This document shows positions 1,623 through 61,680 of a stretch of 64,000 bases of DNA, piece by piece. The stretch is from positions 710,135-774,134 of the forward strand of contig SJOL01007501.1 of NCBI GenBank assembly GCA_004794785.1. The letters run 5' to 3'. This stretch comes from Opisthorchis felineus (taxonomy: Eukaryota; Platyhelminthes; Trematoda; Opisthorchiida; Opisthorchiidae). Under the pieces are notes generated by a model. It worked only from the letters and a program-made list of their open reading frames with translations. It was not told the DNA's origin and did no database searches. Numbering within the stretch: position 1 is the stretch's first letter; the number at the start of each line of letters is the position of its first letter. The position numbers and the translations under genes are program-made.

Positions 1623-1624
<2 letters not shown>

Positions 1625-1625
<1 letters not shown>

Positions 1626-1965
1626 TGAAAACTCTTTGACAGCCCACGACCGATTTTGTCCTTCTTGAGGCTCATCAGGTAGATGCAGTCCACGGGTTTC
1701 CGTCAAACTTATGTTCTAGTTGAACCCAAATTGGAAGCCAGTCATGAGCTGTCACAGCGCTTCTAGTAACCTTATAAGTAGCATGATACTTCCAAACGAC
1801 AGCGCATTGCGATACCTCGAATATCTTGCCCAGTGAAGCTTGAGACGGCCTGGTAAAGCACAGTCAGTTGAAGTGGAACATAAGAAGCAAGGAATTAAGC
1901 TGGGTTCAGTTGAGTCTGTTGTAAAAACCAAAGCCGTGTGCAAGGGAGAGTACTTGGCGAAGGTC
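1625..1965. repeat. F1 hammerhead repeat, inverted pair of partial copies
   Basis: The left part (1625-1720) is a minus-strand F1 hammerhead domain. Its core is damaged: the conserved GAAA reads AAAA and helix II is imperfect. A plus-strand F1 arm follows (about 1747-1965), beginning in hammerhead-3'-flank-like sequence, passing the imperfect palindrome near 1810-1826 and ending in the family's terminal segment, here GAGAGTACTTGGCG. The two parts face opposite ways, an arrangement seen at several F1 loci in this window. It abuts a (TA)n tract. Confidence 0.75.
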
Positions 1966-7580: not shown

Positions 7581-8750
7581 TGTAGCTCATATTCGGAGAG
7601 GATCAAGTTTACTGATTTGTATTTGAGGCGCTTAGTTTACTCACAAATCTGTGGTTGGTACTATGACAATTGCCCCACAACACATGTTAACCCTGATGAG
7701 ACTGTCTAAATCTTGGCGTCCGGAAAAGAGCAGAGAGTAGTGCTCAGTATGTCCGAAAGGCTCACCTTCTGTGAAAATAAAGTGGTCCTTGAATTACCAT
7801 TATCTTTGGCAAGGAAAAACAGATGAAAATTTGGGTAGTACGTCCAGCTGATCAATTCAAGACCAGCAAGACCGACAGCAGACCGTCGAGGACTTTTCAT
7901 CAACCTCAAAAATAGTATCGTTCCTGTTTTGATTGGCAGGAACTTAACTTCGCTCTCGAAGAACCTACCTGTATAGAGCATGTGAGACTGAAATGAAAAG
8001 ATTCACCTCTTTGTTTTTGTCAACTACGGGGCAACGTAAACTTGGTCCAACGAAACTGTAAACATTGTCATAAAGTTTAAAGGTTTGTTTAGGTTCGGAC
8101 TATGCATGTTTTGGATGAACCTTGCTGACAGACAGATGATACTAGGGCAGGCCTGCTCATAGACAACTGAATCGGTGAATACGATTAAAGAACTTCTCGG
8201 AATCAGGCAAAGACCAACGTGGAATTCTGTTGATTCATGCAAGTTTAATAAACTTCGCGGGGGTCCGTTCACGTGTGTGAAAATGGAGTGACAGTTAATC
8301 TTCGTTAAAAATTCTGACAAGTAATAAGCATCAATAGGGATAAACACTGAGCGTAAGCGTTGCCTAGACTTTCCTCAAAAGATTCACTGAAAGCGTTATG
8401 GGGCAATAAACCGAACTAACCCATGTAATAAAAATTACGTCAAGTTAAGGAGTGTGATTATCAAGTAAATCAATACAGAAAATTGATTATTTATGAATGC
8501 TCATGAATGAAAAAGTTATTTTCGAGGCGAATTCCGTCTGCCTGTTAACTAGCAAACACAAATGGGCTGCATGACTGCGACTGCGACATGTACTGAATTG
8601 TGAATTTTCTAACGATGTTGAAATGGCCTTGGAATGATCTCCGTCAAGCGGGTAGCCTCACCGTAGCATGTCACACGAAAATCCAGGTGGTTTTTCTCCG
8701 TTGAGTCTATTTCACCTACAAAAGGTGAAGAAAGAAAATATAACCTTCAA
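7581..8750. other. Nothing recognised
   Basis: Two minus frames of 91 and 107 codons (7706-7981, 8024-8347) have no recognisable domain. No family repeats were seen. Confidence 0.35.
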
Positions 8751-8950
8751 CAAATACACTCATTTGCATATCAATTTGGCTTTCACGCAAAACTCAACTG
8801 AGTCCCTCGTTCACGATATTCTTCAGCCGAATGTGCTGCTGTTCAAGTAGAAAATAAGTTGACAGAAACTCGGGAACTGTGCCTACCTGATGAGCCCTAA
8901 GAAGGGCGAAACCGGTCGTGGGTTGACGAAGCGTTTTCAGCAATCTTGTG
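8751..8950. repeat. F1 hammerhead repeat: inverted arm plus intact hammerhead
   Basis: A minus-strand F1 arm (8751-8845, starting with the family terminus AAATACACTCATTTGCA) is joined directly to a plus-strand F1 hammerhead domain (about 8850-8950). The outer part of helix I is recognisable on both sides of the ribozyme (AAACTC at about 8866-8871 and GTTTTC at about 8933-8938). Confidence 0.8.
8881..8923 (+). ncRNA. Hammerhead ribozyme, F1, intact core
   Basis: Every canonical core position is present. Helix I is GCCTAC (8881-8886) paired with GTGGGT (8918-8923), with wobble pairs. The CTGATGA box is at 8887-8893. Helix II is GCCC (8894-8897) with GGGC (8904-8907) around a 6-nt loop. GAAA is at 8908-8911, followed by CCGGTC (8912-8917). 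The cleavage triplet is GTC, so scission is predicted after 8917. Helix III as written is only A-T plus two C-G pairs with no loop. ACCGGT is self-complementary, so a dimeric ribozyme is the likely active form. Confidence 0.85.
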
Positions 8951-10729
8951 AGTAGTTTTCTTTAGGAGAATATAATCAGCTTTCAGGCCCTGATTATCCG
9001 CCTAGCCAGAGAGTGCCTCCAATTTGTAAGGATTTTCTAAACGAAATTCAGTAAAACATAGGGGTGTCTCAGTGCTAGCCAGCAAAATAACCCTAAGGAA
9101 CGCGTATCGAACATGTTTTGTCCAAATTGGTTTGGGAAACAATATGATGCTCAGATATTTCACTGAAGGGCACCAGGAATGACATCTCTTGTAACGTGTA
9201 CCTCAAATATGGCTTACAAAGTATATCGATGTAATTGAGCTATGTAAAATGTGACAAAATGGTGAGAAATCACCATGAACAAGCCTCTAAATTACAGGAT
9301 CTGGTGAAAAATAACGCAAAAATATAAGAACGCATTCGGCTGACATGATCTTGTCCGGTAAAGTCGGTGGGGAAGGAATCATGCTCTAACATCATCGAGT
9401 TAGGCGTCAGAGTAATGGATTTACGTCCATTGGAAGATGTGAAGCCTGTAGTTGGTGCAATAGTCACAGAGATCATTCAAGAGGCAGGCTTGCAAAAGCA
9501 TTAGTATAGTCCGGAAACATCCTTCGAAATAATTCGGCTTGCATATTAAAAATCCGTTCCATTTCTATCCGTCTTTTGTCGCAAAGCTGTAAATACGGAT
9601 GTAACCAGCACAACAGCTCAGGATGTGATGGGAACTGCTCGATTCCACTGGAGTATGAAGCCACAGATATAGTCAAACGTCAGGAGAAAGTTTCGTTTAT
9701 AATCTGGAAAAACTCATGCACAGCATTTGGAAGGTGGAAGAAGGAGCAATCTCACATTAACCATTGTTGTTTTAAATTGGAGAATTCGAAAATAATAGGG
9801 CATCGCCATAATGATCACGCTCAAAAGCTTATAACACATGTCACTCTATACAAGCTCCCCAGCACTCTGAAGAAGCAGAGTCACGGAATGCAGACAGGGT
9901 TGCCTTCTAAGTCGTTGGTGATTTAAAATAGGACGACGTCTGGAACGCCTCCACCCAACAACCGCCGACAGCTACTAGTTTCTCAAACCTTCATGTGTGC
10001 TGATCGCGTTGTACTTTGGCCAGGTATCTACTTCAAGTGTATTTCGAACATACACCTCAGCTCTGTGTAGTTTCTACATTTTAGTACTCGTATTCACTGA
10101 CAGCATTCTCCTGAAATAATGGCCTGAAGTGATATTCGCCGGGATTGCATTTTATCAACATTCGCTCGCAAATTTGCGTTGGAATTAATCGACAAAAACA
10201 ACCTCCAATCCAGCTTGGTCACAGCACAACACTGCCAACAGCCCACTACCGACGTCAACTCCATTGGAGACGAATTAACCAACCCGGAATCAGTACTTCT
10301 CAGTTTGTAGCTATCCGAGGACTACTTGGTGACCAGTAGAAGGTTTCGGTGATTTTTCACGACACTTTCGTACGGAATCCCTAGGGCGATTAGTCAGCGA
10401 ATCACCATGACTCAATAAATCCATATGATGATAGATAGTGCAAAAAAGACTTGAAATACCCGGAACCGTGATCAGTAAGACATCCTAGTCATCAAAGTGT
10501 ATATACAATTTATGATAACACCTAGTGAAGCTTGGCAAACGTTGAAGGCATCCACTCAAACCATCTAAAGATGCGCTTGAAGAAAATCGGCCAAGTAGTC
10601 CACTGGCAGATGAGGCAGTATACAACACGGGTAGCCCTCCAGACATGATGTATGTCTGCAATTAATTGGCTGCAACAAAGTCTAAAGTGTATTGAGTGTG
10701 AAGTTAGTATGAGATTCCCGATTTTTTCA
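8951..10729. other. Nothing recognised
   Basis: A 116-codon plus frame (9576-9926) begins with a small Cys cluster (CKYGC and CDGNC), but no domain is recognised and start and splice sites are unsupported. No family repeat was seen. Confidence 0.35.
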
Positions 10730-10990: not shown

Positions 10991-11524
10991 TTCAATCGTC
11001 CTGGCAATTAGGCTTCCGTCTGAGTTACTTAGTTTTCAGCATGGCAACGTCTGAATGCTGATAGCTCGGATGAGTTTATTGGCCGTTGATCAGATGGCAG
11101 GCAATGTGCTCACCAAGCCTGGCAACTTGCTTGCAAACGTTTCGTCACCACACGAAGGCACGTCGTCACTACGAGCGTTGTCGTCCTCCGTGCACTGACG
11201 AGGTACCCTGGCATGGTGACGGAGCTTTGAAAGGAAATTGCCAAACTCGGCGAACTGATCTCAACAACCACCTGATCAAACGAGTAAAGAATTGAAAGCT
11301 GGAACACTTCATTTCATAGGAAGACTAGCAATAAAACCCCACAGTTTGTGGAGATGGGTTACTGGATCTGAGCGGATGGCCAAGTGATATTACTGCGGAC
11401 TGGTATTGTGGCTCAACCACATCGTAGTTAGGCCATAGTAGGATTTGGAAAGAGTGCACAGAAACCGTGACCACGGCACACTGATAAGTATGGCTTCACA
11501 AAAATAGAATAGAAGAAATCGACA

Positions 11525-11790
11525 AATGTTCTCATTTGAACACGAATTTGGGAGACTCAGTTGAATCCAGCTGAATCTCGCGTTTATGATGGTCCGCTTC
11601 GTGTGCAAATGAGGGTACTTGTCGAATGTGTCGAGCTTGCTTTATTTGTCCATTTAGGGTTCAAGTAAAACATAAGGCTGACGGAAACCCGCGGACTGTG
11701 CCTACCTGATGAGCCCCAAGAAGACTGAAACCGGTATCGAGCTGTCGAGGAAGTTTCAGCAATCTTATGAGTAGTGTGTGACAAGAATAG
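11525..11790. repeat. F1 hammerhead repeat, rearranged and decayed
   Basis: A minus F1 arm (about 11525-11595) is joined to the tail of a plus arm (TGCAAATGAGGGTACTTGTCG near 11604-11624) and then to a plus hammerhead domain (about 11660-11775). CTGATGA is present at 11706-11712 and GAAA at 11727-11730. Helix II no longer pairs (GCCC against GACT), and the cleavage region has an extra base (CCGGTATC). The ribozyme is judged inactive. Confidence 0.75.
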
Positions 11791-14110: not shown

Positions 14111-14767
14111 TTTTACCTCAAAATGAAATACATCTAGTTTGGAACGATAAGATCTTGTAGAGATTTTCTGATGAAATCCCTCACAGAACAACTTGTGTTC
14201 TTTGGGATTTCTTGTTCATTCATCGGTGCACCAAACAAGGACAAGCGTCCATTACCTCACGATTGAAGAACACAGCCACCCTTCACACAGTGGCCTCACA
14301 CTTGAAGTGTCTTCAAAGGTGATTCCATCTAATCACCAGGATCAACCAGGATATGTGCACCGCTAAAAACAAACAACGTCAATATTTCGAAGGTGCTTTG
14401 CTTTGAAGGCTGTTCATTAATATGGGGAAAGCGTTGTCGCCGACTTTAAACGTTCATTAAGAACAAATTTTTGTCCATATACAACTTGACAACAAACTTG
14501 ATGCTCCCTATAGTCTGAGAGCAAGGGTACACGTCATGTTTGTTTTCACCCAGTACATCCCAACTACCTGCAAAACAAGATAACCATCCAATTTTCTTTT
14601 GGACCACTTCCTAAAAGTTAACGAGGCATATCGGTGGCTTGGACCGCTTCTTATTCCGACACAGTCAAACACTTTAATGTTAACGCTCTGTGTATAAGAT
14701 TCACTAATCAGAATCAGAAAACTGATTCAGCAGTCACTTGGATTTCAAAGAGGAAACTGCTTACAGG
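14111..14767. other. Nothing recognised
   Basis: No signal was seen beyond short frames. Confidence 0.35.
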
Positions 14768-15567
14768 GTTGATAAAAACTCTTCGACAGCCCACGACCGG
14801 TTTCACCATTCTTGAGGCTCATTGGGTAGGGACAGTTACAAGTTTTTCGTCAAACTTATGTTCTTCTTGGGTGTCATAAACGAGAGATTCAGCTGGAATT
14901 CAGCTGTGTCTCGCGTGAAACGCAAATTGGTATGCAAACGAGTGTATTTGTCGAAGTTCGAGCAATTTGGATCCACATAGAAAGTAAGGTTGACGGGGAA
15001 TTAGGAATTGCACCTACTTGCAGATCTCCAAGAGGGGTGAAACCGTTCGTATGCGAGTTTTCAGCAACCTTATGAGTAGTGTGTTGCGTCTAGACAACAA
15101 CGTACTGCTATATGTCGAATATCTTTCCAACTGAAACAAGAGACGGCCTGGTACAACACTTCTAGTTGAAGCAGAGCATCACAAACGAGAGATTTAGCTA
15201 TATTCGGCTGACCTTCCTATCAAAACCGAATTCACGTGCAAATGATAGTATTGATCAAAATCTGTCCAATTTGGGTTCTGGTAGAATATAAGGTTGATGG
15301 AAACTCGGAGACTGCGGCTACTTGATGAGCCCCAAGAAGGGCGAAATCGGTCGTGGGTTGTCGAAGAGTTTTCAGCAACCTTGTGAGTAGATTCCTTTAT
15401 GAAAATATAGTGCGATATCTCGCATATCGTGTCAACTGAAACATGAAGCTGCTTTGACGAGGCATATTCAGTTGAAGAATATCATTAACCAGAGATTCAA
15501 CTGAGTCTGTCGAGTCTCTTGTGAAAAGCGAATTGGTATGCAAATGAGTGCATTTGTCAGTCATTTG
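14768..15567. repeat. F1 cluster: inverted hammerhead plus head-to-tail dimer
   Basis: The order is as follows. A minus hammerhead domain (14775-14866) has its CTGATGA box mutated to CAATGA. A plus arm (14874-14965) precedes a plus hammerhead (about 14985-15083), whose CTGATGA box reads TTGCAGA. A complete plus arm follows (15085-15270). The second plus hammerhead (15285-15390) has TTGATGA (15322-15328) in place of CTGATGA, but helix II GCCC/GGGC, GAAA (15343-15346) and GTC are intact. A final plus arm spans 15400-15567. The CTAC beside the core recurs at 15014 and 15318, a 304-bp period. All three ribozymes look inactive through point mutations. Confidence 0.8.
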
Positions 15568-33235: not shown

Positions 33236-33261
33236 CCAGTTCTCCTATTGACACTACTCAT

Positions 33262-33535
33262 AATGTTACTGAAAATTCTTCGACAGCCCACGACCGGTTT
33301 CGCCCTTCTTAGGGCTCATCAGGTAGGCGCAGTCCCCGAGTTTCCGTCAACCTGATGTTCTACTTAAACCAAATTGGACTGATTTCGACAAATACACTCA
33401 TTTGCAAATCAATTTGGTTTTCACGGGAGACCCAACTGAATCTCTCGTTTGTGATATTCTTTAACTGAATGTGCTGCACAAAGGCCGCCTTATGTTTCAG
33501 CTGGTACGATATTCGAGATATCGCAATGGATTTCC
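33262..33535 (-). repeat. F1 hammerhead repeat, single copy with intact ribozyme
   Basis: Minus-strand hammerhead domain (33265-33360), then the linking segment and the arm with the terminus AAATACACTCATTTGCAAAT (33384-33403). The far portion (33475-33530) is TGCTGCACAAAGGCCGCCTT and the palindromic CGATATTCGAGATATCG. It directly follows an F3 repeat, so this is a nested or clustered insertion site. Confidence 0.85.
33287..33329 (-). ncRNA. Hammerhead ribozyme, F1, intact core
   Basis: On the minus strand, helix I is GCCTAC (33329-33324) with GTGGGC (33292-33287), six pairs with one wobble. CTGATGA is at 33323-33317. Helix II is GCCC (33316-33313) with GGGC (33306-33303). GAAA is at 33302-33299 and CCGGTC at 33298-33293. 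Cleavage is predicted between 33293 and 33292. The helix III segment ACCGGT is a palindrome. This is the copy with the best helix I pairing of the three intact ones. Confidence 0.88.
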
Positions 33536-33970
33536 ATACAGGGTTATCAGTATCATTGTCGACACTAATACTGTACCACAGTACAGTACTTTCAGTCGTT
33601 TTTTGTTTAAAACCTCATGGTAGAAAAAGGTTGGATTCGACGAACATGGCTTACATCAAAGAGAATGAGATGCCCATCCCTCAGAATGTGTAATCAGGCA
33701 ATATTAAAGAAACTAACAGCCTAAACACCACTGACATCTATCAGCCGTCCTTTTTTACGGTCTCCAGCCGAGTCCAAGAAGGGGGTCACCGGGACCACGT
33801 CCTGTGAGGCGCACTAACGACACCCAGACGTACATTTGCTTAATCCACGCCCTACTGCCAAACCACACTCTTTCCTCCCGGTGGGTTGCAGCGTAACGGA
33901 AGGGATACGGAGACCAACATTTTTTTCGGAAACCGGCCATTCAGTATGCGTAACGTATGATCGTGTCCCC
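33536..33970. other. Nothing recognised
   Basis: A spacer of about 430 bases lies between two F1 loci, with short frames only. Confidence 0.35.
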
Positions 33971-34306
33971 ACATCATCAGGTAGGCGCACTCCCAGAGTT
34001 TCCGTCAACCTCATGTTCTACTTGAAACCAAATTGCACGGAATTAGCGAAATACACTCATTTGCAAATAAATTTGGTTTTGCGGGAGATTCACCTGGAAC
34101 CCAGCTGAATCTCTCGTTTATGATGTTTTTTAGTGTATTACGTCTATACTTGTATCGCGATATCTCGAATATCGTGCCAACTGAAACATGAGGTGGCCTG
34201 ATGCAGCACATTCAGCTACTTAGAAACACCATAAACGAGAGATTCAGCTGTGTTCCAGGTGAGTCTCTCGCAAAACCAAATTTGTTTGCAAATGAGTGTA
34301 TTTCGC
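33971..34306. repeat. F1 foldback element: inverted arms of 83 nt
   Basis: A minus F1 begins inside the ribozyme core (TCATCAG at 33974-33980, the rest of the hammerhead missing), continues through the 5' flank, and has a complete arm at 34046-34128. A plus F1 follows from CGCGATATCTCGAATATCG (34156-34174), with its arm at 34224-34306. The two arms are reverse complements at 78 of 83 positions by my count, with termini GCGAAATACACTC and GAGTGTATTTCGC. The result looks like a terminal-inverted-repeat element but is built from two F1 pieces. Confidence 0.85.
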
Positions 34307-51676: not shown

Positions 51677-51938
51677 CGATTTCAAATGGACTCATTTGCA
51701 AACAAATTTGGTTTTGTGGGAGACTCACCTGGAACCCAACTGAATCTCTTGTTTATGATGTTTTCAAGCAACTGAATGTGCTGCACAAGGCCGCCTGATG
51801 TTTCAGTTGGTACGATATTAATCATAATTGGGAGGTTCAGCTGGGTTCCAGGTGAGTCTTTCGCAAAAACAAATTGGTTTGCAAATGAGTTAGCCAATTT
51901 CAAGAAAAACATAAGGTTGACGGAACCTCGGGGACCGC

Positions 51939-51987
51939 GCCTACCTGATGAGCCCCAAGAAGGACGAAGCCGGACGTGGGCTGTCGA
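51939..51987 (+). ncRNA. Hammerhead ribozyme, F1, unit 1, mutated
   Basis: CTGATGA (51945-51951) is intact. Helix II is GCCC with GGAC, GAAA is changed to GAAG (51966-51969), and the cleavage triplet GTC is changed to GAC. These changes break the conserved A15.1-U16.1 pair, so this unit should not cleave. Confidence 0.75.
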
Positions 51988-52247
51988 AGAATTTTCAGCA
52001 ACCTTATGAGTAGTACATTGCGCAAAATTACATGCATCGCGATATCTCGAATATCGTAGCAACTGGAACATGAGGCGGCCTGGTGCAGCACATTCAGTTG
52101 CATGGAAACATCACAAACGAGAGATTCAGCTGGGTTCCAGGTGAGTCTCTCGCAAAACCAAATTGATTTGCAAATGAGTGTATTTCTTGAAAACAGTCCA
52201 ATTTGGGTCCAAGTAGAACATAAGGTTGACGAAAACTCGGGGACTGC

Positions 52248-52290
52248 GCCTGCCTGATGAGCCCCAAGAAGGGCGAAACCGGTCGTGGGC
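52248..52290 (+). ncRNA. Hammerhead ribozyme, F1, unit 2, intact core
   Basis: Helix I is GCCTGC (52248-52253) with GTGGGC (52285-52290), six pairs with two wobbles. CTGATGA is at 52254-52260. Helix II is GCCC (52261-52264) with GGGC (52271-52274), loop CAAGAA. GAAA is at 52275-52278 and CCGGTC at 52279-52284. Cleavage is predicted after 52284. Beyond an internal loop, helix I continues with GAAAA (52231-52235) against TTTTC (52301-52305) and ATAAGGTTG (52220-52228) against CAACCTTAT (52308-52316), nine perfect pairs. It is a type I arrangement with very short, palindromic helix III. Confidence 0.9.
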
Positions 52291-52500
52291 TGTCGAAGAA
52301 TTTTCAGCAACCTTATGAGTAGTACATTGCGCAAAATTACATGCATCGCGATATCTCGAATATCGTAGCAACTGGAACATGAGGCGGCCTGGTGCAGCAC
52401 ATTCAGTTGCATGGAAACATCACAAACGAGAGATTCAGCTGGGTTCCAGGTGAGTCTCTCGCAAAACCAAATTGATTTGCAAATGAGTGTATTTCTTGTA

Positions 52501-55500
52501 GTTTATAGTCATTTTCGTGTTAAAACGTAATAAGATTTCATCGGTTTTGAAATTTGTGTGGTGACCTATGTTCGCGTTCTAGTGCTGACCACCTGAAATG
52601 ATACAAAAGGCTTTGTAAGTTTACGCCACCAGGAATGACGTTTCGTTTTACTGATCGGCAAACACCAAACATTGTTTTCAGATAGCGTCAGGGTTGTAGC
52701 GCGAATAAAACTCACGGGCTCAGTTGACCGAGCGGACTCTGGTCACCTATTTCGTTGAAGCTCCAACGATACCCGTAAAGGCTTTGTGCGCTGACCAGGT
52801 TATACGAAAGGATGAAACAAAATGTTTTGCGCAAGTAGATCTGAGTTCGTCCGTGAGTAACATTCGAGAATATGGCCAAAAAAAGTCGGCTAAAAGAGGT
52901 GGAGTCAAGTGCTCATTTGCAGACTCATACGGTGCTCAGTGACACTCAAGTAACTACGTCGCCTGCAGCATTTTTCAATACAATGTGCTTGGCAGAAGCC
53001 ACCCAACAGCATAGTTGGATCAAGAATGAACATGTTCTAGTATCTTTCCTGGATGCAATAGTACTCTAAAGGCGCTACGAAAAGCAGCCAAGCATCAGTG
53101 TTGAACACTAATGTTATGCTGTTGGTGATGATGCTGATGACTAGGAAATCTCATTATCGACCTACTCTCGGTCTCCCGTTTTTCGAAAGACAAGGTAGGA
53201 TTCCTATCGGACTGATGGAGCATGTTTGCAATTCAAAGCTCATTTACAGACAGTCGTCTACTCTTCCGAGGTTGCCGAAGAAGTTCAGTTGTCTCAGTGT
53301 TGACACGACAGTCATTGCATTGACTACTGATGACCATCCACAGAAACTCTAACCACATCAACCGAAATACCATACTGTCAGCAAATACGGTCAATCTAAG
53401 TCAAGTGCATTATACAGCTCCTTCATTGTTGTTGGGCACCACCATAGGTGCGTACATCGTGGACCTGTGGAGAGATTCCCACTCTCAGTCTCTAGATTTT
53501 CATGAAGAGACTACACCATCTGATCACCAGCGACCAATGAGTAGTATGAACAACTTATACTTAGACAGGATATGTCATGCGTACATGATCCGGTGTGGAA
53601 TAACTTATTGGTGCAACTTCAGAAACCTTGTCACCACTTAGTAGATCCAGTAATCAGCTGGTCGGAAGTTACCGGTGAACGTGGGTTCGAAATGACACTG
53701 TCATCTGCTAAACTTTACTTGTTGATAACCAGCTTGCCTAAAGCCATACATGTAAAGGATGCCAGTTTTTAATTGAGTATAGTTAATCTCTTCCGTCGCT
53801 CATCAGTGGCTCTGAGGAAGCTATGTTCTGAATTCGCATGCAGGGCAACCACGCAGTTTGTTAGCTCCGGGTAGTGACGTACTTTTTTTGGTTTTCTCCC
53901 TTAAGGTGAACAAGTATAGCCTTCTCCGTGTGGTTTAATGCAGTACCCCTCAGCAGAAACATAAAACACTTGGTTCCGTTCTTGTGTTTCGATTCACTCA
54001 ACTGTCCGCCCATTAGTTCAGGCGTTGACTTCTTCATTCCAAACAAGCACAATCGCCTATCTATGGAGTACAGCGAGTGAGATATTGAGTATCTGGCGTG
54101 CTCAGAGACTTTCTGACTCACCGCTGGAGTGCCTCGAACTGTGCGATAGCGACCGCCCCCAGCATTTAGCCCCAATAGCGGTTTGTCCATTGGAAGCAAT
54201 TACGGTTTGACGCATTTTTATTTAAGCATGCCTCATTCTAGTGAAGTCCTAAAAACTTCCTGCTGCTCATACACCCTCAAAATGGGCAGAACTCGCTTTT
54301 GGACTCCTGCGAATCCCATTAATGTCGCACTTGAATTGCTGTAAAGAACGTTATGATTTGCATTTCTAGCTAGTTTATGAAGGATGCATTTATCAAAGGT
54401 TTTGTCAAAAACGGACCAAATTTGTTTGAACTAATAGCGCACCCATGGACAGCTTAACCTGGTCTATACTGTCAGTAAATATGCCGACTGTTTGCCTGAA
54501 GAATGGTAAATCCAGTCACACGACTTCCTGCCAAGCGGTATTAATGCAGTTCTGTTTTGAATGACAGTTAGACAGCGCTTTGCTTCGCCCCTTGGGAATC
54601 GGGCAAAGAAATCAACGCCGGATGTTGTTTTAGCGAATGACTTATGGGTGAGAGCGGGCAATTCAAACTTCTTCCTCACCTCAGTCCATACCGCGGCGAG
54701 CTATCAAGCGAAATGCACACGCCACTTATCGTGCCTGTAGAGTGGCTAAAACAGTTAATGAATTATTTTTTCCACATAATGGTTTACTGTAAATGAGTTT
54801 GGGCTGTTTCTCGGACCAGTGGGGGGACTATACGAGACTGTCAACGATCCGCGTCACAGCAGGAAAGCTATAAATCCCAATTGAGTATCGATATATGGGA
54901 CGGACCTGTTCTTTTGGTATAGTTAAGCTCTGTCAGAGGGGGAAATAGGTTTTCCTCCCATGTATCTCAGGACCAAAAAGAACCTATGAAAAATATATTT
55001 ACGACTTGATTGAAACCGAGTAGTTTTATTGCGCCGATAAATCGTTCATGAGCTGTTGCATTGGTTGATCAGTTCTGAAGTTTTTTGACAAATTCTTTAA
55101 ATGTGTATTCTACCTCATTCCCCAAGTGGGTGCATACAGGTGCAAGTGGGTTGATTGTTCGTGCTGCGTTTTGAGACGTTATTCATTCGCACATCTGGCG
55201 TGATTACTTCACGGATGACTGGCTGCGAGACTATCTTGCCGGACCACTTTGCCTTCAAACTAGGTCCTCTGTGTTAACCAAAGAGAATCCAGCTTAAGGT
55301 TCGGTCAATAGTCCAGGCCAAGTTCGTTTGGGCGTCACTTCGTCGTTCGTCTTAAGTAGATTCACGTTGCTGCGCAGTAACAGTACACCAAAGGTATGTA
55401 GATTAGCGAAACACTTACCATGCCCACCGTATTTCTGCGCTCTACAAAAAAAGATACAAAAGCCTGACTAGCTCGGCTTCTGAGCTGGGTTGATCGGGCT

Positions 55501-60985: not shown

Positions 60986-61274
60986 TCTAGTCTCAGTAAA
61001 ATGAATTTCAACTTTTTGGACGATTGAATTTGTAATCATGTGATCCTGTTCAATAATATCAGTGTGGCAAGTAGAGAATACATGGTCGAACTTTTTCAGA
61101 AGTAGCCGAAACAATCAACTTGCTTGTTTCTCTTTAGTTCTCGGAATAACAGGGAGTTTTACTGAATGGTTAAAACCATATTAAGGTTGTAGTGTTCACG
61201 GATCTGGTGCATTTTTAAGGTCTAGTCATAGGACACTTTTTGTCTGCACAATAAAATGACACCCATCCTCCGAC

Positions 61275-61502
61275 GTAACGCACTACTAATAAGGTTGCTG
61301 AAAACTCTTCGACAGCACACGACCGGTTTCGCTCTTCTTGGGGCTCATCATGTAGGCACGGTCCCCGAGTTTTTGTCAATCTTAGGTTCTGCTTGAACAT
61401 AAGATTGCTTAAAATTATCATAAGCGAGAGATTAAGCTGGATTCGAGGCGAGTCTCCCATCAAAACGAAATTGGTATGCAAATGAGTGTATTTCGCTGAC
61501 AC
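61275..61502. repeat. F1 inverted element
   Basis: A minus hammerhead domain (61288-61395) is joined to a plus arm (61396-61496) ending in GAGTGTATTTCGC. The ribozyme is nearly whole, but CTGATGA reads ATGATGA, helix II has GCCC against GAGC, and helix I GTGTGC. It lost activity by few changes. Confidence 0.8.
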
Positions 61503-61680
61503 TCATCCTTCCTTCAGTAGCTAGATGGCCTCCAAACTACTAATAGTGGAGGATTACTTACACAGTCTTGAGTCTAAATAACTTCGAATCATCAAGACAG
61601 GTGTTGCGTTTTAGAGACTTCTGGGATTATCTACACTTATCCATTGCTAAAAATGAGCGCTTGTCGTTAATTCCTCAAGT

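Follow-up and report, generated by a model that had tools for sequence, protein, structure and literature searches.

F1, the repeat family behind a head-to-tail pair of 309-bp units in a 64-kb stretch of Opisthorchis felineus DNA (the whole analysed stretch, called the window below), is probably a non-coding, non-autonomous retroelement of retrozyme type that relies on the Penelope-like elements (PLEs) of the same genome. It resembles the retrozymes in its unit and the PLEs in its ribozyme and insertion pattern. Most F1 copies that end on a 3′ side do so at two regions of the unit, and PLEs would mobilise these copies in trans, with the ribozymes of neighbouring units acting as dimers.

Structure of the tandem locus and its hammerheads

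The F1 locus of the window is a composite, in which an inverted partial unit and a truncated unit are followed by two full units:

51684–51819, minus strand: inverted arm, running from unit 305 down to unit 170, outer end at site B; 89% complementary to 52050–52185
51802–51890, plus strand: partial unit (unit 213–299) that overlaps the inverted arm at its inner end; 82% identical to the young unit
51901–52209, plus strand: tandem unit 1; 51905–51974 holds all nine differences from unit 2, and 51975–52189 is identical to it
52210–52498, plus strand: tandem unit 2; with 52190–52209, it matches eight of the nine units of locus L011 with zero differences
51933–51995, plus strand: unit 1 hammerhead with an altered core (A15.1 and U16.1); Rfam HH9, 22.7 bits, E 0.006
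52239–52303, plus strand: hammerhead of unit 2, intact core, loop-less helix III (A.CC/GG.U); Rfam HH9, 32.7 bits, E 3.7e-6

The copies at 51901–52189 and 52210–52498 are spaced by exactly 309 bases and share 97% identity over 289 nt without a gap, and Tandem Repeats Finder gives the pair a period of 309, 1.9 copies and a score of 1133. The exact 309-base repeat with one hammerhead per unit, as described in an earlier note on this DNA, is confirmed by self-comparison, Tandem Repeats Finder and Rfam. The GC content of the unit is 46.9%.

Unit 1 differs from unit 2 at unit positions 25, 27, 43, 46, 56, 63, 84, 89 and 94, and the confinement of all nine differences to unit 25–94 has a chance of about 5e-6. 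The last of them lies one base before unit 95, the predicted cut site, and the next 215 bases are identical. Two pieces would then make up the window locus, an old one that extends from the inverted arm to about 51974 and a young one (51975–52498) attached to it. Because all nine differences form one block before the predicted cut, the inactivation of unit 1 is assigned to the old piece. The joining may have occurred by any of three routes, namely insertion into the old copy, gene conversion or unequal exchange. There is no clear target duplication at this locus, the best flank match being 5 bases. The "dimer" of the earlier note therefore stands as a tandem pair, but one pieced together from an old and a young part, and not a dimer that arrived in a single insertion. 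An open frame of 200 amino acids on the minus strand (51900–52502) spans both units, continuing through them because 309 is a multiple of three. Pfam gives no match above cut-off for the three open frames tested at the F1 locus, this one included, and the frame is probably due to chance.

Both HH9 matches lie under the family cut-off of 52 bits, and the Rfam scan of the 64-kb window yields no match at gathering score. Compared with an expectation of 0.03, the strict motif CTGATGAG..CGAAAC is present at three places in the window, once in unit 2. The core of unit 2 is intact and that of unit 1 is altered at A15.1 (unit 89) and U16.1 (unit 94), just as the earlier note had read them; a third change near the core of unit 1, at unit 84, disrupts a stem II pair and was absent from that reading. 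From the known hammerhead numbering, the unit 2 ribozyme presumably cuts after 52284. The unit sequence following GAAA is CCGGUC, and helix III is composed of A15.1–U16.1 and two C–G pairs without a loop. Judging by its sequence, such a helix should not close inside one hammerhead, and two hammerheads could pair through it. With units 1 and 2 paired, each active site would take A15.1 of one unit and U16.1 of the other, and the changes of unit 1 should spoil both. PLE hammerheads reportedly cut as dimers, according to a paper of 2017. Minimal PLE hammerheads and dimeric cutting are also described in the available text of two reviews (PMC7761336, PMC6155905). The release of a 309-nt monomer, which the earlier note anticipated from a transcript crossing both units, is not to be expected from the window locus alone, because unit 1 is inactive and helix III should form only between two hammerheads.

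The predicted fold of the 309-nt circle has −97.1 kcal/mol, compared with −77.8 (sd 5.2) in 200 shuffles. Covariation among 15 copies lends no support to the hammerhead helices, with 89.0% of cells paired against 89.1% in shuffles. Old copies differ by majority from the young unit at 14 positions, and unit 64–134, which extends from the hammerhead core to site A, contains just one of these (111), a hint that this segment is under constraint.

Copy ends and inverted arms

The genome comprises 630 Mb in 1848 contigs. A search with an 824-base query found at least 233 F1 matches (40 of the 9008 candidates scored). Head-to-tail arrays of 2–11 full units exist elsewhere, with 11 units in L012, nine in L011 and L026, and eight in L014. 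Twenty arbitrary 10-kb stretches (L029–L048) contain eight F1 loci, corresponding to about 33,000 in the genome (95% interval 14,000–65,000), an estimate that is rough because 48,033 of the 200,000 bases read N. The window holds 16 more matched F1 loci besides the tandem locus, 17 in 64 kb, so that the 264 kb of window and arbitrary stretches, of which 216 kb are free of N, hold 25 loci in all, with the window enriched relative to the arbitrary stretches. The tandem copies that the earlier note looked to in the genome do occur, in arrays of up to 11 units, but most mapped loci are dispersed and short.

For 45 loci (17 from the window, eight from the arbitrary stretches and 20 from searches), a script located both outer ends on the unit. 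The 3′ side faces outward at 70 of the 90 ends; both ends are 3′-outward in 25 of the 45 loci and both 5′-outward in none. The 20 5′-outward ends have scattered positions. Two regions collect the 3′-outward ends:

52309–52344, plus strand: site A (unit 120–155, commonest position 134 = 52323); 26 of the 70 3′-outward ends, nine exactly at 134
52494–52505, plus strand: site B (unit 305–309 plus a few following bases), where the window locus ends on its right; 32 of the 70 3′-outward ends, at unit 305–309/1–6

Site A is situated 25–60 nt past the ribozyme cut and site B 210–220 nt past it. The two sites take 58 of the 70 3′-outward ends against 10.6 expected for 15% of the unit, the A and B windows having been chosen after the data were seen. 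The remaining 12 lie outside A and B. Within the window and arbitrary loci alone, 31 of 39 ends are at A or B. Furthermore, 25 of the 26 A arms run across the cut junction, for which reason a ribozyme-cut linear monomer was rejected as the template. Because copies run through the intact junction, the template should be an uncut multimer or, presumably, a circle.

An inverted 5′ arm is present in 12 of the 20 searched, mostly young loci (L009–L014, L017, L018, L020, L024, L025 and L027) and lacking in five (L019, L021, L022, L023 and L026); L015 and L016 are blocked by N, and L028 is unclear. Of these 12 inverted arms, nine begin within A or B (P about 6e-6, with the windows set post hoc). Both ends could be classed in eight of these inverted-arm loci, and all eight pair an A end with a B end (P 0.02). 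L013 and L017 were re-read by hand as bearing an inverted B arm. With the hand corrections, the A/B pairing counts are 17 mixed, two B+B and no A+A, compared with 14, two and none by script alone (permutation P 0.001 and 0.004, respectively); these counts include old, non-independent loci, with an unclassed end in nine of 25, and do not serve as main evidence.

Flank duplications scoring at least 8 are found in 10 of 43 loci against 2.3% of mismatched flanks, and those scoring at least 10 in five of 43 against 0.06%; L016 was skipped in the scoring because of its N. Target duplications of 9–15 bp thus mark a minority of loci, and like those given for metazoan retrozymes they exceed 4 bp. The other 33 of the 43 loci, the window locus included, have no duplication at a score of 8 or more. 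In L013 and L017, flank duplications of 14–15 bp are visible by eye, which the script missed because the ends of these loci were misplaced.

Compact copies and further F1 loci in the window

Several of the other F1 copies in the window are well resolved:

33253–34304, minus strand: F1 insertion with an inverted arm, ends at sites A and B, interruption of about 440 bp; 14-bp flanking duplication with one mismatch
61274–61494, minus strand: compact form in which the hammerhead/A arm is joined to an inverted B arm; 13-bp flanking duplication with one mismatch
8746–8956, plus strand: compact copy with an intact strict hammerhead motif at 8887–8912 (motif scan and end mapping)
11519–11775, plus strand: compact copy; perfect 13-bp flanking duplication
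14756–15555, plus strand: old copy, inverted A arm followed by tandem units to site B (unit and end mapping)

The compact form measures about 226 bp. The 241-base query 61264–61504 is matched nearly end to end, across its inversion, at 78–84% identity, and all 39 of the 39 other scored loci span the inversion (40 of the 4499 candidates scored). The compact form propagates as a unit with its inversion ready-made, and because its inversion is spanned in 39 of 39 loci, the old F1 loci are not independent events. The notion that every inverted copy represents an independent two-ended event was withdrawn, since the compact form is copied as a unit, and was kept only for the searched, mostly young loci. 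The window's own inversion is spanned by nine of 39 other scored loci, with gaps. A local check among the 12 searched inverted-arm loci found no inner junction in common at 90% or above, the closest pair being L012 and L020 at 87%. In this check the junctions of L013 and L017 are poorly tested, having 70 and 93 spanning hits of lower identity (those shown 66–83%), which were taken as ordinary unit sequence.

Copies of about 335 bp at window 1623–1955 and at L031:1035–1373 apparently have a common inversion joint, with the A arm from 8–10 and the B arm from 86–87. The local junction check gave no spanning hit for either, and a second compact form is possible but doubtful. The parts 33253–33531 and 33974–34304 were scored apart by the script and merged by hand on their duplication. 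In the intervening 33532–33973 (about 440 bp), one stretch resembles, by eye, the PLE 5′ region of L056, and the segment may be another dispersed repeat. To the right of the tandem locus, a tRNA-like motif, GGCTCAGTTGACCGAGCGG, is located at 52717–52735 and is perhaps part of a tRNA-derived SINE; ARAGORN finds no tRNA gene in the window, and the five tRNA-like motif matches there are no excess over the 3.15 expected.

Penelope-like elements and the proposed mobilisation of F1

The genome is rich in PLEs. A reverse-transcriptase (RT) query scored at least 150 PLE matches among 2873 candidates, several of them in open frames of about 860 amino acids and some in longer ones. A GIY-YIG search gave six matches (L049–L054), of which L049 is SLX1-like; L051 and L052 contain RT and GIY-YIG frames, and L054 resembles both. 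The GIY-YIG match exceeds the Pfam cut-off, and the RT match (E 6e-6) is just below it. The GIY-YIG match of L053 is likewise above cut-off, and the locus is not assigned to the PLEs. At the tandem junction of PLE-A (L055), a minimal hammerhead is located at 252–285, at the start of the frame. All three dispersed PLE-A copies (L051, L052 and L054) stop matching at one base, 42 nt past the cut, and the inverted arm of L052 starts 72 nt past it. Both flanks of L052 carry the 12-bp repeat ATATTTGAAGAA, as seen by eye. PLE-C (L057) also has a minimal hammerhead, with an inverted arm from 97 nt past the cut. A motif scan of the PLE 5′ regions of L056 and L058, two of the four that were read, gives no hammerhead. 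Among the 150 listed matches, 11 PLE pairs lie within 5 kb; by eye, four are direct, six are inverted with 3′ ends outward and one is inverted inward. An F1 match beside the PLE in L051 was considered as a PLE terminal repeat and reads instead as an old F1 insertion of its own, with a truncated PLE downstream of it.

Metazoan retrozymes, according to the available text of PMC7229834 (Cervera and de la Peña 2020), are tandem non-coding units of 150–450 bp with one type I hammerhead and a GC content below 50%, ranging from dimers to long arrays, with duplications of more than 4 bp and platyhelminths among their hosts. F1 agrees with them in its 309-bp unit, its single type I hammerhead, its GC content, its arrays and many dispersed copies, and its duplications. 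In contrast to them, the F1 hammerhead has no helix III loop and thus departs from the canonical closed helix III, and its inverted arms and two end sites are a feature that the same available text does not describe for retrozymes. That text assigns minimal hammerhead variants to PLEs and Terminons; since it allows weak helix III in amphibian retrozymes as well, the loop-less helix lowers the case for retrozyme membership without excluding it. The retrozyme-like label of the earlier note accordingly holds for unit size, hammerhead type, GC content, arrays and duplications, whereas the ribozyme class and the copy ends are PLE-like.

An anole PLE (PMC11167929) cuts both DNA strands and extends them, initiates reverse transcription at two positions within the RNA, and has a hammerhead that cuts only when the protein is present. 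Rotifer Penelopes, in the available text of PMC3846280, have direct repeats and an inverted one, duplications of 8–10 bp and a 31-bp tail on one inverted repeat, and can be mobilised in trans by their terminal repeats alone. F1 shares with the PLEs a minimal hammerhead, direct repeats plus an inverted repeat, target duplications (in a minority of loci), and ends at a set distance past the ribozyme cut that differs between the two arms; the A/B asymmetry resembles the Penelope tail rule in that part of PMC3846280. Compared with the PLEs, the F1 unit is 309 bp rather than a spacing of about 2.8 kb (C909), and sites A and B are 171–180 nt apart rather than the 30 nt between the PLE-A ends. F1 is not itself a PLE, because it has only 309 bp per unit and its three frames give no RT or GIY-YIG match above the Pfam cut-off. 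Schistosoma Sm-alpha (PMC6155905) and W-elements (PMC8490949), as far as the available text describes them, are also tandem or dispersed fluke repeats with type I hammerheads. Sm-alpha differs from F1 in its full hammerhead with loop contacts, the likeness being one of description between uncompared sequences. For W-elements, the available text of PMC8490949 takes autosomal copies as signs of mobility, gives one presumptive target duplication and leaves the mechanism open.

In the proposed mechanism, an F1 array would be transcribed, and the minimal hammerheads of neighbouring units would pair via their self-complementary helix III and then cut. Cut units may be religated into circles. A PLE protein, by analogy with PLE biochemistry, would recognise the F1 RNA and cut both strands at a new site. 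Reverse transcription would start inside the RNA at region A or B and run back through the intact cut junction, often over several units. Extension of both target strands would often leave two outward-facing arms, one side carrying the inverted one, along with a short duplication of the target, which is the pattern seen in the copies. The window locus would be an older insertion of this kind, its right part replaced or extended by young sequence.

Several observations count against this PLE reading. F1 has no sequence similarity to the four PLE 5′ regions, two of which are without a hammerhead motif hit, and plain homology to these regions was dropped as an explanation. The end spacing of A and B differs from that of PLE-A, the compact form exists, 33 of 43 loci have no duplication, five of the 20 searched loci have no inverted arm, 12 of the 70 3′-outward ends lie elsewhere, and covariation among 15 copies does not support the hammerhead helices. 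More tentatively, F1 might join the retrozymes to the PLEs as their missing link. It would then be a circular hammerhead RNA carrying two start sites, and a PLE protein dimer would prime both cut DNA strands on it together, one at A and the other at B, and roll out identical tandem units in one event; this is conceivable, though rather doubtful.

Mobilisation of F1 by PLEs would fit a published suggestion. The available text of PMC7229834 leaves open which enzyme moves animal retrozymes and calls PLEs a strong candidate, a view repeated in that of the review PMC7761336. F1 adds sequence evidence from one genome for such a link, with ends that follow PLE rules beside PLEs showing the same rules. 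If true, it would tie together two odd kinds of jumping DNA, and sites A and B provide defined start regions for tests with purified PLE protein. A literature search, which covered few subscription papers, found none describing such insertion ends for retrozymes.

Three rival explanations were considered and then dropped on the counterevidence given with each. It is unlikely that F1 is an ordinary metazoan retrozyme whose 309-nt monomers are circularised and reintegrated by a LINE, with the inverted arms as 5′ inversions from twin priming. Unit size, arrays, the single hammerhead per unit, GC content and duplications would all suit it, and LINE products are known to carry inversions at their 5′ side. 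Twin priming, however, would be expected to fix one end and let the internal start vary, whereas in the searched loci nine of the 12 inverted arms begin in the two regions where the 3′ ends also fall; moreover, the hammerhead is of the loop-less kind and a poly-A end was not noticed by eye. A DNA transposon with terminal inverted repeats (MITE) that carries the hammerhead by chance is barely credible: a compact form with inverted arms that is copied as a unit would be in keeping with it, but the two ends differ (A and B), the 20 5′-outward ends of the 90 are scattered, the duplication length varies from 9 to 15, and the inner junctions of the 12 searched inverted-arm loci mostly differ, although L012 and L020 may share one.

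Very improbable, too, is a satellite-type repeat in which unequal exchange or rolling-circle DNA amplification enlarges and homogenises the arrays and the hammerhead is a passenger. It draws on runs of identical neighbouring units in L011 (eight), L012 (nine), L015 (four) and L026 (six), and on edge units that differ. Such a process leaves unexplained why the majority of mapped loci are short and dispersed, why their end sites recur and why some have duplications; besides, 74 of the 82 units extracted from the window and 20 loci have an intact hammerhead motif, and the edge effect may be an assembly or polishing artefact. In this effect, 44 of the 52 private differences of first units are at position 155 or below and 48 of the 62 of last units above 155, while the 41 inner units have 48 private differences, most of them common to the inner units of L026. 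The effect fits young units inserted into old copies, homogenisation that spares the edges, or an assembly artefact; the last is unlikely as the whole story because the young right end of the window locus abuts unique flank. By eye, L014:355–641 appears to be a young F1 array within an older F1 copy, and the family may insert into itself.
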